Shown here in pieces: positions 322-26,998 of a DNA stretch of 41,789 nt. Position 1 is the first letter of the stretch. Each line of letters opens with the position of its first letter. The translations under genes and the position numbers were made by a program. The notes beneath the pieces are model-generated. The model had not been told where the DNA came from. It did no database searches and was given only the letters and a program-made list of their open reading frames with translations. The DNA comes from Candidatus Blautia excrementigallinarum (GTDB lineage: Bacteria > Bacillota > Clostridia > Lachnospirales > Lachnospiraceae): assembly GCA_019119235.1 (NCBI GenBank), contig DWXL01000013.1, positions 1 through 41,789 of the forward strand. The letters are read 5' to 3'.

Positions 322-2010
322 ATGAAAAAATATACAGATTTCAATATCGAAAAAGAGGACAGACAGACGGATCAGATGATAAAGAGAACCCTGGACGCGG
401 ATTTTCCTCTTCCGGAAACTGTGGAGAACGCGAAGCGGGAAGCTTTCGCAAAAATCCGGGAAAAAGCGAAAGATAAGAAAACAGGAGAGAAAATATATAA
501 TATTGATAACCGTTCCGGCGGCACCGATTCCGGCAGAAAAACTGCCATGAGACTTCGCCGGACCTTCCTCGGCTTTGCGGCCGCTGCGGCGGCGTTTTCC
601 GGAGTATGTATCGTCAATCCGGCTTTTGCATCGAATATTCCGGTAGTGGGAGGCATATTTGAGACTCTGGGTAATTCCCTGGGATTTTCAGGAGATTTCG
701 ATAAATACGCGGAACCCGCAGGAGATACGGAAGCAGAAAACACACAGAAATCGGGTGATCCGGAGGCAGAAGATGTGGATAACTCCGGTCAGAAGACAGA
801 TACTGTGGAAACAGGCGGCAAAAATACAGGCGAACCGAAGAATGGTATCACGGCAACACAGAACGGAACTTCCGTGACTCTGTCGGAGGTATATTGTAAC
901 GATTCTGCTCTGTATCTGGCTTTTAAGATCGAGACTGAGGATAAATTCCCGGATACTATGATGGATCAGGAAGGGAAACCCGTTGTGCGTTTCGGTTTCG
1001 ACTCTGCTTTCAGCACCAGTTTCCAGTCCGGAAAGGATGAGATGCTTCTGAACAGTTATCTGGACGGACAGATACTGGACGAGAATACATATGCAGGAGT
1101 CCTCCGTATCGAAAGCACAGATTTGACGGTGGATGAAAAAGGCTGGAACGACTTTTATAACGCCAGAAATTCTTTCTTTGAGGAAAACGGTATTGACGTC
1201 GATAGCTTCAGTACAGATCAGATCAGCAAGGTGTTTGGAATCGAAGAGTATACCGATGAGATCCTCCCGGAGATCGGCGGTCCGGATATCCACGATTATG
1301 TAAAAGAGATATCTCTCCCTGAGGATTTTACTCTTGATCTAACTGTGAGAGATATCATCGGAACACTTCCGGAAGACCAGAGTAAGTTGCCGGAGATACC
1401 GGAAGATATTAAAAAGGCATATGAGGACGCCATGGCCGAAAACGGTCTCAGCACAGAAGAGAGCGCTTATGATAATTTCACGGAAGAGCAGAAGGATACG
1501 GAGCACCGGCTCTTTACGGAGATGTGGAACGCTTACTATGAACGATATCCGGAAGCGGCGGGACCGGGCAATGAATATGAGAACTGGATCCTGGATGGAG
1601 AATGGAAGTTTACGGTTGATGTAAATAAAAACCTCTCCGATACAGTTACAAAAGATATCGATGTGACAGACGGCGACGGATACGGCGTAACTTCCATCAC
1701 AAAAACCCCATTTGAGATCACAGTGGAAATGAATGACCCTGAAGCAAAATATGTCCCGGTAGTGCTGGACGCTGAAGGGGAATTGATGACCGGAGGCGGA
1801 CTTGTAGGAAACATGGAAACTGTAGCTGTACAGGGAAAAGACACTTCCACCGTTTATGTATATATTTGTGATTATTATGAATACATGGACGAACTGAAAG
1901 GATACTACTGGTCGGAAGACTACGTAGAAAAGGCAAAAGAGAAAACCTTCCGGGAGCTTCTGGATGAAAGAGCCGTTGCGAAAGCGGAAGTGAATTTTGA
2001 CGAGCCGTAA
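322..2010 (+). CDS. DUF4179-type membrane-anchored protein, probable anti-sigma partner of the upstream sigma factor
   Basis: 562 aa; cytoplasmic N-terminus, one TM segment (TFLGFAAAAAAFSGVCIVNPAFA) followed by NIPVVGGIFETLG, then a large extracytoplasmic region; directly downstream of the sigma gene with RBS-like aaaggga. Confidence 0.8.
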   Translation: MKKYTDFNIEKEDRQTDQMIKRTLDADFPLPETVENAKREAFAKIREKAKDKKTGEKIYNIDNRSGGTDSGRKTAMRLRRTFLGFAAAAAAFSGVCIVNPAFASNIPVVGGIFETLGNSLGFSGDFDKYAEPAGDTEAENTQKSGDPEAEDVDNSGQKTDTVETGGKNTGEPKNGITATQNGTSVTLSEVYCNDSALYLAFKIETEDKFPDTMMDQEGKPVVRFGFDSAFSTSFQSGKDEMLLNSYLDGQILDENTYAGVLRIESTDLTVDEKGWNDFYNARNSFFEENGIDVDSFSTDQISKVFGIEEYTDEILPEIGGPDIHDYVKEISLPEDFTLDLTVRDIIGTLPEDQSKLPEIPEDIKKAYEDAMAENGLSTEESAYDNFTEEQKDTEHRLFTEMWNAYYERYPEAAGPGNEYENWILDGEWKFTVDVNKNLSDTVTKDIDVTDGDGYGVTSITKTPFEITVEMNDPEAKYVPVVLDAEGELMTGGGLVGNMETVAVQGKDTSTVYVYICDYYEYMDELKGYYWSEDYVEKAKEKTFRELLDERAVAKAEVNFDEP

Positions 2011-5330: not shown

Positions 5331-6534
5331 GCTGATCATTAGTAAAATGCCGGTCCACGGATGTCCCTGTATCGTGTGCGCAGTAGTCTCGGATAATAAA
5401 GTGCAGGAACTCCGGCTGGAACCGTTTGAAAAGAAAAGTATTCTCGGCAATATCTATGTGGGAAAAACGGAAGAGATCGCCTCCAATATCCGCGCGGCTT
5501 TTATCCGGTTCGCCGACGGACAGAAAGGCTACATGCCCCTCAGCGAAGGAGACAGGGCCATCTATACATCCGGACGGAAGGGGAACGCGCCGCTCCGGCC
5601 CGGAGACGAACTTCTCGTTCAGGTAAAGCGAGACGCAATGAAAGGCAAACTGCCCGCCCTGACTTCCGACCTTAATCTCACCGGAAAATATTTTGCCCTC
5701 ACAACGGGAAATAAAAAAATCGGGTTTTCCGCGAAACTCTCGAAAGAAGAGGCGGCGCTCGCAGCCAAATGGCTGGAGGACGAGCGGCAGATTCCGGAAA
5801 GAGAATACGGTCTCATCGTCAGAACCAACGCGGCGGACGCGACCAAAGAAGACTTTCTCCATGAACTGGAATATCTGAAGAAACTGTACCGGAAAACTGC
5901 CGTTGAAGGCAGGAACCGCACCTGTTTCAGCTGCCTTTACGAGGCGGAACCTTTTTATCTGGCGGCGGTGCGGGATATCTACAGCCGCGATCTGGAGGAA
6001 ATCGTTACAGATGTTCCGGAGATCCATCAGAAATTATCCTATTATCTTCAGGACTTCAAGCCGGAAGAACTGGAGAAGCTGCGGCTTTATGACGACGCTC
6101 TGCTTCCCTTATATAAACTGTACCGTCTGGAAACTGCTCTGGAAGAGGTGGAACGGGAAAAGATCTGGCTGAACAGCGGAGGTTTCCTTGTGATCCAGCA
6201 GACGGAGGCCTTCGTTTCCATCGACGTGAACAGCGGCAAATATACGGGAAAGAAAAAAGCCGAGGAAACCTACCGGAAGATCAATCTAGAAGCGGCAGGA
6301 GAGATCGCACGCCAGATCCGCCTTCGGAATCTCTCCGGGATCATCCTGATCGATTTTATCAATATGGAGAATCCGGACCATACGGACGAGCTGTTCCATG
6401 TGCTTCAGAAATACCTCCGCAAAGACCCGGTGAAATGCAGGGCTGTGGATATCACGCCTCTCCATATCCTGGAGATGACAAGAAAGAAAGTGAGACGGCC
6501 GGTGGCGGAAGAACTAGCCGAGATAAAAAGGTAA
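5323..6534 (+). CDS. Ribonuclease E/G family protein
   Basis: 403 aa from a TTG start; GNIYVGKTEEIASNIRAAFIRF (S1-like) and SIDVNSGKYTGKKKAEETYRKINLEAAGEIARQIRLRNLSGIILIDFI catalytic region. Confidence 0.92.
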   Translation: MSKLIISKMPVHGCPCIVCAVVSDNKVQELRLEPFEKKSILGNIYVGKTEEIASNIRAAFIRFADGQKGYMPLSEGDRAIYTSGRKGNAPLRPGDELLVQVKRDAMKGKLPALTSDLNLTGKYFALTTGNKKIGFSAKLSKEEAALAAKWLEDERQIPEREYGLIVRTNAADATKEDFLHELEYLKKLYRKTAVEGRNRTCFSCLYEAEPFYLAAVRDIYSRDLEEIVTDVPEIHQKLSYYLQDFKPEELEKLRLYDDALLPLYKLYRLETALEEVEREKIWLNSGGFLVIQQTEAFVSIDVNSGKYTGKKKAEETYRKINLEAAGEIARQIRLRNLSGIILIDFINMENPDHTDELFHVLQKYLRKDPVKCRAVDITPLHILEMTRKKVRRPVAEELAEIKR

Positions 6535-19809: not shown

Positions 19810-20868
19810 ATGGAAAACAGACAGACTTATCATGAACATACAGATATCGAAAACACTCTGCGTCTCCGTCAGGTACTGGAAACCCTACCTCCGTTCTGCA
19901 GGGACTATTTCCGTTCCATAGACGCCACCACAACAACGAAAACCAGAATATCCTACGCATACGACATCCGCATCTTCTTTCAGTTTCTTCTGGAGAGCAA
20001 TCCTGCTTTTAAGGGTAAAACCATGAGGGATATCGACGTAGGCGTTCTGGACCAGATCAAGGCACTTGATATCGAGGAATATCAGGAATATCTTAAAGTC
20101 TACCAGAACGGCGAACGTATGGAAACCAACGGCGAACGTGGCCTGAAACGCAAGATTTCCGCTTTGCGAAGCTTTTATGCCTACTATTATAAAAGGGAAA
20201 TGATCCACACCAATCCTACCGTCCTCGTGGACGTTCCCAAGATCCATCAGAAAAGTATCATTCGTCTGGACGCGGACGAAGTCGCCATGCTTCTGGATTA
20301 TATCGAACACTGCGGCGATCATCTTACCGGACAGAAACGTGTGTTCTATGAAAAAACAAAAGAGAGAGACCTGGCTATCGTAACTTTGCTTCTGGGAACG
20401 GGGATCCGCGTGTCTGAATGTGTGGGCCTTGATATTGAAGACGTCGATTTTAAGAACAACGGGATCAAAGTAACACGTAAAGGCGGAAATGAAATGGTTG
20501 TCTATTTCGGTCCGGAAGTGGAAAAAGCGCTGAAACGGTATCTGGAGGTAAGAGAAGGGATCACTCCTCTCGCCGGCCATGAGCACGCGCTCTTCTACTC
20601 TTCCCAGCGCCGCCGGATCGGCGTGCAGGCTGTGGAAAACCTGGTGAAAAAATATGCCCGTCAGATCACCACCACGAAGAAAATAACGCCTCATAAGCTG
20701 CGCAGCACCTACGGCACTGCTTTGTATCAGGAAACAGGCGATATTTACCTTGTAGCGGACGTTCTGGGCCATAGGGACGTTAATACCACCAAGAAGCATT
20801 ACGCCGCCCTGGACGACGCCAGAAGACGTCAGGCTGCCTCCGCGGTACGGCTCCGTGAGGAAGAATAA
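19810..20868 (+). CDS. Tyrosine recombinase, XerS-like
   Basis: 352 aa; catalytic GTGIRVSECVGLDIEDVD ... HKLRSTYGTALY ... LGHRDVNTTKKHY. Confidence 0.9.
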   Translation: MENRQTYHEHTDIENTLRLRQVLETLPPFCRDYFRSIDATTTTKTRISYAYDIRIFFQFLLESNPAFKGKTMRDIDVGVLDQIKALDIEEYQEYLKVYQNGERMETNGERGLKRKISALRSFYAYYYKREMIHTNPTVLVDVPKIHQKSIIRLDADEVAMLLDYIEHCGDHLTGQKRVFYEKTKERDLAIVTLLLGTGIRVSECVGLDIEDVDFKNNGIKVTRKGGNEMVVYFGPEVEKALKRYLEVREGITPLAGHEHALFYSSQRRRIGVQAVENLVKKYARQITTTKKITPHKLRSTYGTALYQETGDIYLVADVLGHRDVNTTKKHYAALDDARRRQAASAVRLREEE

Positions 20869-20889: not shown

Positions 20890-20924
20890 ACCCCGGAGGG
20901 ATTTATATGAAATCCTTCCGGGGT
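20890..20924. terminator. Bidirectional terminator between the recombinase and the acyl ligase
   Basis: accccggagggattt-atatg-aaatccttccggggt, near-perfect inverted repeat between convergent genes. Confidence 0.88.
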
Positions 20925-20945: not shown

Positions 20946-22454
20946 TCAGAATCTCTTGATCTTCCTTGTGGTGGTCTTTTCAAATTCCTGTTCGCGGACG
21001 ATCAGGCTGTAGATCTTTTTCTGGGGAGCCGCGCCGCGGTTGTATTCATCGATAACTTCCTGAAGTTTGGCCCGCACGTCTTTGATATGTTTTTTCTTAA
21101 CATAGTCCTGATCCGGATAGATCTCCGCTTCGATCACTCCGTTGTGCTCGCGCACCAGTACCTCTCCTACCAGGCGGTTCGTGCTGAGAGCGTTTTCCAG
21201 TTCCTCGGGAGAAACATTCTCTCCGTTTTTGGTAATGATCAGGTTCTTCTTGCGGCCGGTCAGAAATACAAATCCGTCCTCGTCCACATAACCCAGATCG
21301 CCTGTCTTCAGCCATCCGTTTTCCAGTGTTTCGGCCGTCTCCTCCGGCATCTTGTAATATCCCTGCATTACGCTGCTTCCCTTCACCCAAAGCTCGCCGT
21401 CCACTGTTTTTGCCTCGCAGTTGGGAAGAAGCTGTCCCACGGAACCTTTGCGGATATTCCATTTCTGGTTGGTGCTGATCACAGGAGAACACTCGGTCAT
21501 GCCGTATCCTTCCTGGATGGTGATGTCGTATTTCTTAAACAGATCGATGTAGGACGGATCCAGATAGGCGCCGCCGCTGCATATAGTGTGGAACTGTTTA
21601 CCGAACACCTGGCTTTTTACGATTTTGGCCGGAAGCAGTGCCGCCTCCTCCAGTTTTTTCGCCATGGTTTCGATCATCAGAGGAACCATAAGGATCATTT
21701 CCGGTTTAAACAGTTTGATATTCTTTGCCACACGCATCAGAGAATCATTGATGCAGATGATGGATCCCAGAGAAACGCCTTTCAGGATATCCATGCTGAG
21801 ACAGTATGCGTGATGGATGGGGAGCACAGTCATGAGCACGGTGCGCTCGGGAATCTTCATATCCAGACAGGTTGCGTTCTCCGCAACATTTCTGTGGGTA
21901 AGCATAACACCTTTGCTTTTTCCTGTTGTTCCGGAGGTAAACATGATGGTACAGAGATCCTCCGGCTGGGGCGCATGATCAAAACTTCCCTTATGTTCTT
22001 TAAGAAGCGGCCAGAACGCCTGGGCGTCCCCGTCGTGTTCACTTTTCTGCATGGAGATCAGTGTTTTCAGCTGCGGACAGCGCTCCTTTGCCATAGCCGC
22101 CACGTCTTTGCGCACTTCGTCGTATACAAGGACAGTGGAATCAGACCGGTCGATCAGATCGCACACATCCTCCGCGGGAAGATTCACGTCAAGGGGAACA
22201 ATCACACTGCCGCTGTTTACGGTTCCAAAGTAGGTAACCAGCCACGGATAGGAGGTCATTCCGATAACCGCGATATGCTTTCCCTGCTCTCCCATATCCC
22301 GGAGAAGGCAGGAGAAACTCTCGCTGTCTTCTTTCAGCTGTGTGTAGGATTTTGATTCAATTTCATTTTTACTTATTTTGTAACGGACAGCGTCCTCCGG
22401 GCCGTATTTTTTCTCTGTATGGACCAGAATATCGCGCACTGTACTGTAAAGCAT
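20946..22454 (-). CDS. AMP-forming acyl ligase (class I adenylate-forming enzyme)
   Basis: IMFTSGTTGKSKGVMLTHRNV; EGYGMTECSPVIS; GWLKTGDLGYVDEDGFVFLTGRKKNLIITKNGENVSPEELE; C-terminal KTTTRKIKRF. Confidence 0.95.
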   Translation of the reverse strand: MLYSTVRDILVHTEKKYGPEDAVRYKISKNEIESKSYTQLKEDSESFSCLLRDMGEQGKHIAVIGMTSYPWLVTYFGTVNSGSVIVPLDVNLPAEDVCDLIDRSDSTVLVYDEVRKDVAAMAKERCPQLKTLISMQKSEHDGDAQAFWPLLKEHKGSFDHAPQPEDLCTIMFTSGTTGKSKGVMLTHRNVAENATCLDMKIPERTVLMTVLPIHHAYCLSMDILKGVSLGSIICINDSLMRVAKNIKLFKPEMILMVPLMIETMAKKLEEAALLPAKIVKSQVFGKQFHTICSGGAYLDPSYIDLFKKYDITIQEGYGMTECSPVISTNQKWNIRKGSVGQLLPNCEAKTVDGELWVKGSSVMQGYYKMPEETAETLENGWLKTGDLGYVDEDGFVFLTGRKKNLIITKNGENVSPEELENALSTNRLVGEVLVREHNGVIEAEIYPDQDYVKKKHIKDVRAKLQEVIDEYNRGAAPQKKIYSLIVREQEFEKTTTRKIKRF

Positions 22455-22486
22455 ATTTTCAATCCTTTCTCCTGTACGGAAATCAG

Positions 22487-22720
22487 TTAATTTTCAGCGG
22501 TGAGCTTCTCAAGATAATCTACAGCTTCCTGAACGGTACGGATATTTGCCGCTTCCTCCTGCTCCACTTCCACGTCGAATTCGTCCTCGATCTCTCCCAG
22601 CATGCTCATGAAATCGAATGATGTAAAACCGAGATCCTCCATAAAACGGGATTCCGGATGTACGTTCTCCGGAGCCACTTCCACATAGTTGCAGATGATT
22701 TCTACTAATTTCTCAAACAT
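22487..22720 (-). CDS. Free-standing acyl/peptidyl carrier protein
   Basis: 77 aa acidic; phosphopantetheine site context LGFTSFDFMSMLGEIEDEF. Confidence 0.93.
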   Translation of the reverse strand: MFEKLVEIICNYVEVAPENVHPESRFMEDLGFTSFDFMSMLGEIEDEFDVEVEQEEAANIRTVQEAVDYLEKLTAEN

Positions 22721-22774
22721 AACTGTTCTCCTTCTTTATATTATAAATTGTTTTACACACAGGCATTCTTAAGT

Positions 22775-24181
22775 TTATACCAGTTTGATAATATCCCCGA
22801 TGGGCAGATCCGGGTTCTCCGTGCCCTTGAACATGATCTTGCACAGATAATAGTAAAGATACTCCAGTTCCTCTCTGGAAACGGCCTTGATCTGATGCTC
22901 GAAGTTGAAGTCAAGCCCGTTGTCCTCGGGACGGTGCATTACAGTAAGATACATTGCCTGAGGACAGGTTCCGTTGGGATACCATTTGGTTTTGTAACGG
23001 GTATCCCCGATATCGTTCAGTCCTTTCTCCTTAAGCGTCAGGGGCTGATAGGTCAGGGACATCGCCTCATAGGTAAGACCTGCGTGGGGCTGGGGATATA
23101 TCTTTGATCTGTACGCGAAATAGGCAGTGGGATCATAATTCGCATGGCGGAAAATCTCATTCTGCTTGTCCCTGATCGCGTATACGCCGTCGATAAACTT
23201 CATATCCTCCGGGAAAACCGTTCGGATCGGGAAGGAATGGATTCTTGTACCGCCGCATTTTTTCTCCTTCAAAGTAGCGCGTCTCGCGATGGCGTTGTTG
23301 ATGGAAACATCCTCGAATCCGTTCATCTTCTGGAAATATGTACGCAGTCCCATGAGAAGAAGGCACGCCAGGGAAACATGATATTTCTCACAGAAGTCCA
23401 TCAGACGTTTTGTGGGCTCTTCTTCCAGGTGGAAAATATCCAGAGCGGATTTTGTATCGTCGGAGGCATTGAAAGCAGAACGGAGCTCGGGATTTTTGAA
23501 CATCTCTCTTGCCGCTTCCAGTTTGTCTCTTCCATGGATGCCGCTGTAAATTGGCTCGCTTTTTTCAATTTCTTTCTGGAAATATTCGATATCTCTCTTC
23601 TGCGCTTTGCTTCCCGCCTCGTAAGCAAGATCTTTTTCCAGCTGTTCGATGTAGGAAGTCATTTCTGTGGGATAAGGAACTCCTTCATATTTCTCGTTAC
23701 AGTAGAGCTCGATAATATCCTTCAGGAAGCAGATCAGAGACTGGGCGTCCACAATCATATGATGTCCCAGGAAATATACTCCGTTGAAACCGTCGGGCAT
23801 TTTGATCATAACCACACGGGTAAGTGGAGAATCCGCCATTTTAAATGGTACGGTGGTCCATTGCTGCATGGTTGCCTCCGCTTCCTCCATGGTCTTATCG
23901 GAGAAATCCACGAATTCTATCTCTTTTTCTTCCGGATCCACAACGTACTGATACCAGGTTCCTTCTTTGTCCTGCGCAAAACGGATCCGCATTCCCTCGC
24001 TTCTTGCATAGGCTTTATTGATAGATTTTGCCAGAAGGTCCCAGTCGATATCAATCTCGATGGTCAGGCTTGTACCGATATTCAGTACCGCCGCGCTGGG
24101 ACAGAACGGCAGGTAATACAGGTGAAACTTCTGCGCTACGGTCAGCGGATAAACTTTGTATCCTTTTCTCTTTCTCATCAT
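22775..24181 (-). CDS. Free-standing condensation-domain (CoA-dependent acyltransferase superfamily) protein
   Basis: 468 aa; YPLTVAQKFHLYYLPF; active-site motif HHMIVDAQS (HHxxxD). Confidence 0.85.
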   Translation of the reverse strand: MMRKRKGYKVYPLTVAQKFHLYYLPFCPSAAVLNIGTSLTIEIDIDWDLLAKSINKAYARSEGMRIRFAQDKEGTWYQYVVDPEEKEIEFVDFSDKTMEEAEATMQQWTTVPFKMADSPLTRVVMIKMPDGFNGVYFLGHHMIVDAQSLICFLKDIIELYCNEKYEGVPYPTEMTSYIEQLEKDLAYEAGSKAQKRDIEYFQKEIEKSEPIYSGIHGRDKLEAAREMFKNPELRSAFNASDDTKSALDIFHLEEEPTKRLMDFCEKYHVSLACLLLMGLRTYFQKMNGFEDVSINNAIARRATLKEKKCGGTRIHSFPIRTVFPEDMKFIDGVYAIRDKQNEIFRHANYDPTAYFAYRSKIYPQPHAGLTYEAMSLTYQPLTLKEKGLNDIGDTRYKTKWYPNGTCPQAMYLTVMHRPEDNGLDFNFEHQIKAVSREELEYLYYYLCKIMFKGTENPDLPIGDIIKLV

Positions 24182-25122
24182 TTCATTATCCCTCCGATAA
24201 ATGTATCAAGTGCGTTTTCATAGTCCTGTGTGGCTTTGTAATAACTTTCCCCGTGGCCGGCCCCTTTAACGATCAGTTTGTGTTTCGGGGAGGCGCAGTT
24301 TTTATATATCTCTTCGCACATCCAGCAGGGAACGAAGACGTCGTCCGCCCCATGAATAAACAGGATCGGAACTTCCGCCTTTCTCACCTCTCTCGCCGCG
24401 TTGCAGTCGTCAAGGCCGTATCCGGCGTTTTTTCTGTTCAGCTTATCCGCAATCTGGATCATGGGAAACGCCGGCAGGTGATACATACTGTGGAGCACAT
24501 GGGTGAAAACGTCCTTCGCCGAAGTGAAAGCACAGTCGGAAACGATTCCTTTCACCTGAGGCGGCAGATCCAGACCGCTCATCATACAGACGGTCGCTCC
24601 GCCCATGGAATTGCCGGTAAGAAGAATCTGCGCGTCGACGCCGATCTTATTTACCATCCACTTTACCCATTCCAGGCCGTCATAGCGGTCCATGGTGCCG
24701 AAACCAATATAGGTTCCCTCGCTCTCTCCGTGGGCTCTCTCATCGATGAGAAGCATACGGAATCCGTGCTTCAGATAATACCAGGAAAGACTGCCGTAAT
24801 CATTCAGGCCTTTGCTGGTGTAACCGTGAAAACAGATCACGGCCTTCGATCCTTCTTCTCCTTTAAAGTAAGTACCATGCAGCTTCAGGCCGTCCCGTGA
24901 TGTGATCCACACGTCCTCGTGAGGCTGCTCCATCATCCATTCCCGTCTTTCCTGCATAAAGGGAATGTACTTCGGCCAGTCCACGCCGGACATTTTCATG
25001 GTCCTCTCTGTTTTCGCGTTATAGCGCATCATGGTTCTTCTGTAAAAATACGCCGTTCCCCCGGCTTCTGCCAGCGCCGCCGCACCGAGAAGCGCAGCCG
25101 CTCCTTTTGCTATAATTCCCAT
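24178..25122 (-). CDS. Alpha/beta hydrolase with N-terminal membrane anchor
   Basis: KAVICFHGYTSKG; nucleophile elbow TGNSMGGATV; IDERAHGES; hydrophobic N-terminus; 4-nt overlap with the next gene. Confidence 0.92.
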   Translation of the reverse strand: MGIIAKGAAALLGAAALAEAGGTAYFYRRTMMRYNAKTERTMKMSGVDWPKYIPFMQERREWMMEQPHEDVWITSRDGLKLHGTYFKGEEGSKAVICFHGYTSKGLNDYGSLSWYYLKHGFRMLLIDERAHGESEGTYIGFGTMDRYDGLEWVKWMVNKIGVDAQILLTGNSMGGATVCMMSGLDLPPQVKGIVSDCAFTSAKDVFTHVLHSMYHLPAFPMIQIADKLNRKNAGYGLDDCNAAREVRKAEVPILFIHGADDVFVPCWMCEEIYKNCASPKHKLIVKGAGHGESYYKATQDYENALDTFIGGIMK

Positions 25123-25173
25123 ATACGTTCGCCTGCCTTCTGATAGATTTAAATAATATGGTTCCGCTTATTT

Positions 25174-25506
25174 CTATTTCATTCTGCTGTCGATCAGGTC
25201 TTTCAATCTTAACGCCTTATCGATGTTGCCCTCGACTTTCAGTTTGCCGATCGTAAAAGCAAGAACCGGATCTGTTTTGCCTTCCGCCAGTTTAAACAGA
25301 GTTTCCGCCGTGCAGGTAAACATGGCGTCCCTGTCAAAGTATTCATAGGGCTCCACATAGAGCTGTCCTTCCTTTACTTCTGCGTAAAATATACCTTCGG
25401 CCTCACCGGTGATGTTGAACTGATAAGCCAGATGCTCGTGAATATCGCTCACATCCGCGTCCATCAGCATTCCTTTTACTTTTGCAAACATTTCCGCGTA
25501 GGTCAT
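25174..25506 (-). CDS. SCP2 sterol-binding-domain-like small protein
   Basis: MTYAEMFAKVKGMLMDADVSDIHEHLAYQFNITGEAEGIFYAEVKEGQLYVEP...FTIGKLKVEGNIDKALRLKDLI; RBS gggagg upstream of 25506. Confidence 0.8.
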   Translation of the reverse strand: MTYAEMFAKVKGMLMDADVSDIHEHLAYQFNITGEAEGIFYAEVKEGQLYVEPYEYFDRDAMFTCTAETLFKLAEGKTDPVLAFTIGKLKVEGNIDKALRLKDLIDSRMK

Positions 25507-25540
25507 AATTTCCTCCCTTTCATCCACTGATTCGACATTT

Positions 25541-25600
25541 TTCGACCAGCGGTCATATCTTTTCTTTTGATAGAGTATCATCTTTTCGACCAGTGGTCAA
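25541..25600. promoter_or_regulatory. Twin TetR-type operators (GACCAGCGGTC 25544-25554; GACCAGTGGTC 25588-25598) around a minus-strand promoter
   Basis: Two ttcGACCAGYGGTCa palindromes with centres 44 bp apart; minus-strand TTGACC (25600-25595) - 17 bp - TACTCT overlaps the distal operator. Confidence 0.75.
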
Positions 25601-25751: not shown

Positions 25752-26360
25752 ATGCCTAACCAGCAGAAATACGAGCGTATTCTTGACGCGTTGCAGGAAC
25801 TTCTGGAAAACCATAAGCTTCAAAGCATTTCCGTAAGCGAGATTGCGGAAACAGCCGGGATCGGAAAGGGAAGCATCTACTACTACTTTCCTTCCAAGGA
25901 CGCGATCCTGGAGGCCCTGGTGGAGCGAAGCTACGAAAAGCCTCTTCAGACAGCCAAAGCGCTGGCAGGACGCACAGAAATCTCCCCGTTTATCCGGATG
26001 GCGATGATCTTTGAGGCCTGCCGGAACTCTTCCTCAGAATTTATTAAATCCGAAAACAATAAGAATTCCGGCACGCAGGAGAAATCTTTCCTGCACCAGA
26101 AATATATCAATCATATCATCACAGAACTGAAGCCGGTTCTGGCGGAGATCATCCGCCAGGGAATCAAGGCCGGGCAGATCTGCTTCAGTGATCCGGACGC
26201 CCTTGCAGAGATCGTCCTGATCGTGCTTACGGTAAAAATGGACAATACTCTTGTTCCTTCCAGCAAAGAAGATATAGAGAATACCATCAGCGCTCTTGTT
26301 TCTCTTCTGGAAAAAGGGACAGATAATCCTCCGGGTTCACTGAATTTCCTGATCAGCTGA
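25752..26360 (+). CDS. TetR/AcrR family transcriptional regulator
   Basis: ILDALQELLENHKLQSISVSEIAETAGIGKGSIYYYFPSKDAILEALVE. Confidence 0.95.
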   Translation: MPNQQKYERILDALQELLENHKLQSISVSEIAETAGIGKGSIYYYFPSKDAILEALVERSYEKPLQTAKALAGRTEISPFIRMAMIFEACRNSSSEFIKSENNKNSGTQEKSFLHQKYINHIITELKPVLAEIIRQGIKAGQICFSDPDALAEIVLIVLTVKMDNTLVPSSKEDIENTISALVSLLEKGTDNPPGSLNFLIS

Positions 26361-26502: not shown

Positions 26503-26922
26503 TTATAATGCTGTAATAATGCTGTCCTGGAACGCGGCAGGAACATCTTCCTTATCCAGAGACATACTGATGATAAAGTTGACGCCAAATTTCTCTCCCA
26601 CTGCCTTGAGCTGGTCAAGAGTACCGGTAACATCCTGGCCCTCCAGCTTCGCTGTGGTAAGGAAACTGTCCAGATATATTTGTTCAAGATCGTGATCCTG
26701 GGAAATAATACCGCAGACAAAACCGACAAATTCATCGGCGTTCTTAATAGGATATACGGATACATCGATAAGACGAACTTTATTGTTCAGTTCATACATA
26801 TGCTTCGTGCTTTTGTCCAGGTAAACAATGCTGCCATTCACTTCTTTAATTGCGCCGTTTACTTTGTCTAACAGTACTTTTGTTTTGCCCTTGCCTTTCC
26901 TTCCTACAATCAGTTCAACCAT
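26503..26922 (-). CDS. Small P-loop (Walker A) protein of unknown function
   Basis: MVELIVGRKGKGKTKVLLDKVNGAIKEV (GxxxxGKT); 139 aa; RBS aaggagg supports the start at 26922. Confidence 0.8.
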   Translation of the reverse strand: MVELIVGRKGKGKTKVLLDKVNGAIKEVNGSIVYLDKSTKHMYELNNKVRLIDVSVYPIKNADEFVGFVCGIISQDHDLEQIYLDSFLTTAKLEGQDVTGTLDQLKAVGEKFGVNFIISMSLDKEDVPAAFQDSIITAL

Positions 26923-26998
26923 CCTGTTTTCCTCCTTAGACACAATTTAATATTAATTAATATAACTTTTGAACAAAAACCTTAATTAATATGTTTCA

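Follow-up and report, generated by a model that had tools for sequence, protein, structure and literature searches.

Gene content and borders of the locus

The window, the whole stretch of 41,789 nucleotides of Candidatus Blautia excrementigallinarum that was analysed, contains five minus-strand ORFs, whose ends, gaps and overlap agree exactly with those given in an earlier sequence-only reading; Pfam profiles confirm each of the five gene products. The genes are closely spaced, with gaps of 51 (25174/25122), 54 (22775/22720) and 32 nucleotides (22487/22454) and one overlap of four bases (24178-24181). The features of the locus are:

20890..20924, minus strand: terminator-like hairpin at the operon end (-22.9 kcal/mol, z -4.5)
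20946..22454, minus strand: AMP-forming acyl ligase, 502 aa (Pfam AMP-binding, 2e-62)
22487..22720, minus strand: free-standing acyl carrier protein (ACP), 77 aa (Pfam PP-binding, 1.4e-12)
22619..22621, minus strand: codon of ACP Ser34, predicted 4'-phosphopantetheine site (context GFTSFD)
22775..24181, minus strand: free-standing condensation (C) protein, 468 aa, predicted amide-forming acyltransferase (Pfam Condensation, 4.7e-37)
23744..23764, minus strand: C active-site motif HHMIVDA, residues 140-146
24178..25122, minus strand: alpha/beta hydrolase with N-terminal hydrophobic helix, 314 aa (Pfam, 4e-13)
25174..25506, minus strand: SCP2-like lipid-binding protein, 110 aa (Pfam SCP2, 2.2e-13; sterol carrier proteins in the PDB, 8.6e-7)
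25539..25554, minus strand: palindrome 2, GACCGCTGGTCGAAAA, 44 bp downstream of palindrome 1 and just past the likely transcription start; probable TetR operator (from conservation)
25572..25600, minus strand: operon promoter, -35 TTGACC, 17 bp spacer, -10 TACTCT (layout conserved)
25583..25598, minus strand: palindrome 1, GACCACTGGTCGAAAA, overlapping the -35 box; probable TetR operator (from conservation)
25752..26360, plus strand: TetR-family regulator (TetR_N, 2.4e-13, and TetR_C_39, 2e-8), divergent from the operon

The earlier reading had limited the unit to five genes; the TetR gene on the opposite strand, the promoter and the two palindromes had gone unnoticed. This boundary was rejected because the TetR gene and its intergenic region are part of the unit; the unit consists of six genes. 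The start which it had chosen for the SCP2 gene holds: position 25506 is preceded by a good ribosome-binding site, and the alternative upstream ATG (25581) falls inside the promoter. At the other end a strong terminator had been claimed. The hairpin is indeed very stable, yet its U-tract is poor. Convergent genes flank it, so that it probably serves both sides as a bidirectional terminator.

The flanks are chromosomal housekeeping genes according to Pfam and NCBIfam: dehydroquinate synthase, lspA, pseudouridine synthase, cytidylate kinase, dtd and a XerS-like recombinase on one side, DacA-like, RodA/FtsW, MinD-like, PBP and MreBCD proteins on the other. The XerS-like tyrosine recombinase (19810-20868, plus strand), which is convergent with the operon, is found beside the unit in just three other loci. 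A 146-aa ORF (26503-26943, minus strand) has no Pfam or NCBIfam match and is 93-100% kept in four related loci, and a 562-aa protein (322-2010, plus strand) carries a DUF4179 domain.

Conservation of the neighbourhood, which had been named as a check on the operon, is pronounced. Each of the 80 named related loci encodes hydrolase, C protein, ACP and ligase; SCP2 is present in 79 of them and the divergent TetR in 75. The loci, most of them from metagenome bins, were found by a C-protein search, so that co-occurrence is counted only where a C protein is present. Such conservation puts the arrangement far beyond chance. The flanks differ between the loci, the most widespread flanking family occurring in 23 of 80, and the unit therefore has clear edges. 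Some loci in which TetR or SCP2 gave no match end at a contig edge near the unit (e.g. L006, L071), while in L047, L055 and L081 a TetR match was not detected despite several kilobases of upstream sequence. The loci belong almost exclusively to Lachnospiraceae, many of them of chicken-gut origin. L055, with a C protein 78% identical, lies in a bin named Faecalibacterium, outside this family, by transfer or binning error.

The condensation protein, its carrier and the ligase

The best solved relative of the window C protein in a PDB sequence search is entry 12KH (E = 1.9e-107, residues 9-467, i.e. 459 of 468), which is OaaC of Coprococcus eutactus according to its authors (PMC13142362); the next match, a modular NRPS, reaches only 3e-13. 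Identity to OaaC is approximately 39%. In our tree the window protein falls into a clade of its own (type I), beside and separate from the OaaC clade (type II); this is a quick tree with SH-aLRT support only and a midpoint root, into which no canonical NRPS C domains were included. The motif HHMIVDA fits the set (D/H)HxxxD(S/A/G) published for fatty acid amide (FAA) C proteins (PMC13142362), and none of the 97 type I proteins departs from His141, Asp145 and Ala146. At residue 140 (23762-23764), where HHxxxD begins with His, the window clade has D, H, N, Q or S, with the remaining motif fixed.

OaaC is a homodimer opened by holo- or acyl-ACP, as shown for OaaC only (PMC13142362). The segment matching its insertion helix (Gln214-His224) aligns nearly gap-free in types I and II, and a helix is present at residues 219-227 of the AF2 model of the window protein (pLDDT 91), which has a C-domain fold. 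Among the top structural matches of this model are starter C domains that take acyl groups, namely CDA C1 and RzmA with C8-CoA. Since 12KH is absent among the structural matches listed, the fold cannot rank OaaC, and the sequence match was used instead.

The FAA C proteins are related to starter C domains (PMC13142362), and this kinship together with the structural matches would fit a C protein that initiates a lipopeptide or siderophore whose remaining modules lie elsewhere in the genome. We regard this as the least probable of the readings considered: an acceptor carrier or NRPS module was found neither in the unit of the window nor in the conserved unit of the 80 named loci, a search of the genome (assembly 78% complete) with the window C protein detected no second C-like protein, and OaaC uses free amines.

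The ACP gene sits between the C and the ligase genes, which gives the order C-T-A. Ser34 is kept in all 97 type I and all 12 type II carriers; in the window ACP it stands in the context T-S-F instead of the common D-S-L. One AcpS-type transferase was found in the genome. In the ligase the core motifs TSGTTGKSKG, GYGMTE and TGD as well as the C-terminal Lys498 are intact and conserved. Its best NCBIfam matches are long-chain fatty acid ligases, under the cut-off. This, and a regulator weakly resembling a fatty acid regulator, would be expected if ligase and ACP served fatty acid uptake or scavenging with the C protein in a minor or non-catalytic role. If it were dispensable, however, its catalytic residues would not be kept invariant in 97 of 97 type I proteins, and we consider such a function very improbable.

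Demonstrated chemistry is available from relatives. In vitro, OaaC together with OaaACP and OaaA joins free fatty acids to free amines, which gives fatty acid amides (PMC13142362). An acyl amine operon of the order C-T-A was reported in 36 Lachnospiraceae species, and CTA-positive Blautia and Coprococcus catus produce more oleoyl-, palmitoyl- and linoleoyl-ethanolamine than CTA-negative ones (PMC13060934). Further, dopamine rescues B. wexlerae from oleic acid, with oleoyl dopamine being formed, and the fatty acid amides that gut Clostridia produce act on receptors of the host, with links to appetite and to the secretion of GLP-1 (PMC13060934).

Because the C motif, the carrier serine, the ligase motifs and the C-T-A order match the published CTA clusters, we read the locus, with good support, as a unit for type I fatty acid amide (N-acyl amide, "CTA") biosynthesis and assign this a probability of about 0.86, with product, amine and acyl chain inferred. 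The acyl activation and transfer proposed by the earlier reading is thereby supported at the level of OaaC homology, motifs and gene order, and the link to gut-clostridial fatty amide clusters, which it had raised, is borne out by the best match of the C protein and by the published operon order. In favour we also counted the published detoxification of fatty acids by acyl amines in Blautia wexlerae; against it we counted the identity of only about 39% to OaaC, the separate clade, the TSF context of the carrier and the missing Pyridoxal_deC match (see below).

By analogy to these relatives, the ligase would adenylate a free fatty acid with ATP and load it onto Ser34 of the holo-ACP. The C protein would then use a small, freely diffusing amine as acceptor for the acyl group and thereby release the amide. 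The purpose may be to convert toxic free fatty acids into harmless amides, which could also reach host receptors.

The divergent TetR gene and the intergenic region

The TetR protein has its best NCBIfam match in the FadR fatty-acid regulator (2.5e-11), well below the family cut-off. We compared 75 TetR/SCP2 intergenic regions, i.e. that of the window and 74 of its relatives. A -35 box TTGAC(N), a spacer of 17-18 bp and a -10 box TA(N3)T are present in 75/75 regions, against 1.7% of shuffles, and the spacer has 17 bp in 73 of them. Each of the 75 also contains two or three GACC(N3)GGTC palindromes with at most one mismatch, at a density of 2.05 per locus compared to 0.05 in shuffles. The first palindrome overlaps the -35 box and the second follows 43-44 bp further on in 72/75 regions. 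As the pattern was derived from the same loci, the shuffle figures describe its strength and are no independent test; more weight lies on conservation across loci with TetRs of 64-99% identity.

The window's two copies of GACC(N3)GGTCGAAAA are the sole exact matches in the genome assembly. Palindromes with one mismatch elsewhere in the genome were set aside, their frequency being at the level of a reversed-pattern control. A generic sigma-70 scan returned only chance-level promoters. The conserved promoter escaped it owing to a poor -10 box, TACTCT, and was found through conservation.

The divergent TetR is probably a dedicated repressor of the operon, and it probably binds both palindromes, of which the first overlaps the -35 box and the second follows shortly after the start site. 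It would probably let go on binding a fatty acid or an acyl derivative. A fatty acid as the signal is possible in view of the similarity to FadR, which is weak and under the cut-off. Most likely, then, the window encodes a TetR-controlled N-acyl amide pathway, and possibly one that is induced by fatty acids.

Accessory genes, the two types and known systems

The predicted catalytic triad of the hydrolase (Ser172, Asp261, His290) is invariant in 97 of 97 type I proteins, and its AF2 model (pLDDT 90) has the Pf2001 esterase as nearest fold. The sequence-only reading had let the hydrolase and the SCP2-like protein edit, release or bind the lipid product. A releasing hydrolase was rejected as unnecessary because the C protein would pass the acyl group straight to a free amine; editing and lipid binding stand as probable roles. 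With release at the C step, the hydrolase would more likely act upstream than as a releasing enzyme, and its task is probably to liberate fatty acid from esters or to edit misloaded ACP. For the SCP2-like protein, binding and carrying the fatty acid or the amide is the probable role. The conservation of these two genes suggests extra steps in fatty acid supply or handling.

For the amine we looked for a decarboxylase as a clue to its identity. A gene of the Pyridoxal_deC family was not found in the genome, which is 78% complete. This is in line with amine uptake from the gut, and the source of the amine may lie elsewhere.

The earlier reading had left amine and alcohol open as acceptors. We favour an amine, as OaaC forms amides. 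Were the acceptor an alcohol or a lipid headgroup, the product would be an ester or a modified membrane lipid, handled by SCP2 and the membrane-anchored hydrolase. C-fold enzymes are in general able to form esters, SCP2 and hydrolase are conserved in the window clade, 25 clade-specific positions separate its C proteins from those of the OaaC clade, and the first motif residue is variable. The nearest assayed relative, however, yields amides with free amines as acceptors (PMC13142362), acyl amines are the products of CTA-positive Lachnospiraceae (PMC13060934), and the core gene order and catalytic residues are common to the amide-forming systems. An ester or lipid product is therefore improbable, and amide formation remains our preferred reading.

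Loci of the OaaC clade have the order C-T-A, often a hydrolase of about 30% identity and a different TetR (TetR_C_8); SCP2 was not detected in those examined. In a further family of the order, three loci (L157, L158, L159) show TetR-hydrolase-C-T-A, and SCP2 was not found in them. From these few loci the hydrolase looks older in the unit than SCP2. Beside their TetR gene the three carry a related palindrome, e.g. TTGACC(N3)GGTCAA.

A stand-alone C protein scoring above 300 bits is present in 52 of 397 genomes of the family. Among 64 genomes of the window's genus, 13 have a full-length type I protein (at least 58% identity) and 11 one in the OaaC-like range (35-39%); none of the 64 has both. 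L125, L126 and L127 (C near 6490 in each) encode a stand-alone OaaC-like C protein with 43-45% identity to OaaC, with no ligase or carrier gene detected nearby, and the genome of one of them, G149, has a second such protein elsewhere. In L128 (6480-10000) and L130 (4548-7900) the stand-alone C protein is highly divergent, with 26-28% identity to OaaC, and the gene orders are C-A-T and T-A-C. 

It is conceivable, and we propose it tentatively, that the window unit represents a distinct subclass, SCP2-hydrolase-C-T-A plus TetR. Such a self-contained fatty-acid-induced module would combine a two-palindrome switch, a lipid carrier and a substrate-freeing hydrolase, and would use an amine unlike that of the OaaC type.

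Chang et al. 2021 reportedly described clusters of gut Clostridia that make N-acyl amides with discrete ligase, carrier and C genes, as in the window; these clusters are compared here by description only, via citing papers.

Starter condensation domains of lipopeptide synthetases have the C fold and the acyl donor in common with the window C protein. They differ in acting on carrier-bound amino acids within large synthetases, whereas the window unit has no acceptor carrier.

The excerpts drawn on here of the two recent accounts (PMC13142362, PMC13060934) present a three-gene pathway without describing its transcriptional control, the conservation of hydrolase, SCP2 and TetR, or the palindromes. 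The study of 2021 stands outside this comparison, and we do not claim the conserved TetR switch and the SCP2 and hydrolase genes as new. Together with the promoter, the conserved TetR and the paired palindromes offer a direct handle on the timing of amide production in a pathway that is already known and yields compounds able to act on receptors of humans or animals.

The pathway of oleoyl aminovaleric acid in Coprococcus eutactus (OaaA-OaaACP-OaaC, PMC13142362) likewise consists of free-standing ligase, carrier and C protein, with C homology over the full length. In contrast to the window, the paper describes three proteins only, the motif of OaaC is DHxxxDS instead of HHxxxDA, and the two C proteins, at about 39% identity, belong to separate clades, that of OaaC with TetR_C_8 regulators and no SCP2 found. 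These two clades form a natural set for finding the determinants of amine choice. For Blautia wexlerae and further Lachnospiraceae the CTA operon (PMC13060934) is described as three genes, while the window unit has six; gene order and family are common to both, and the genus is probably the same or a close one, the relatives of the window being named Blautia.
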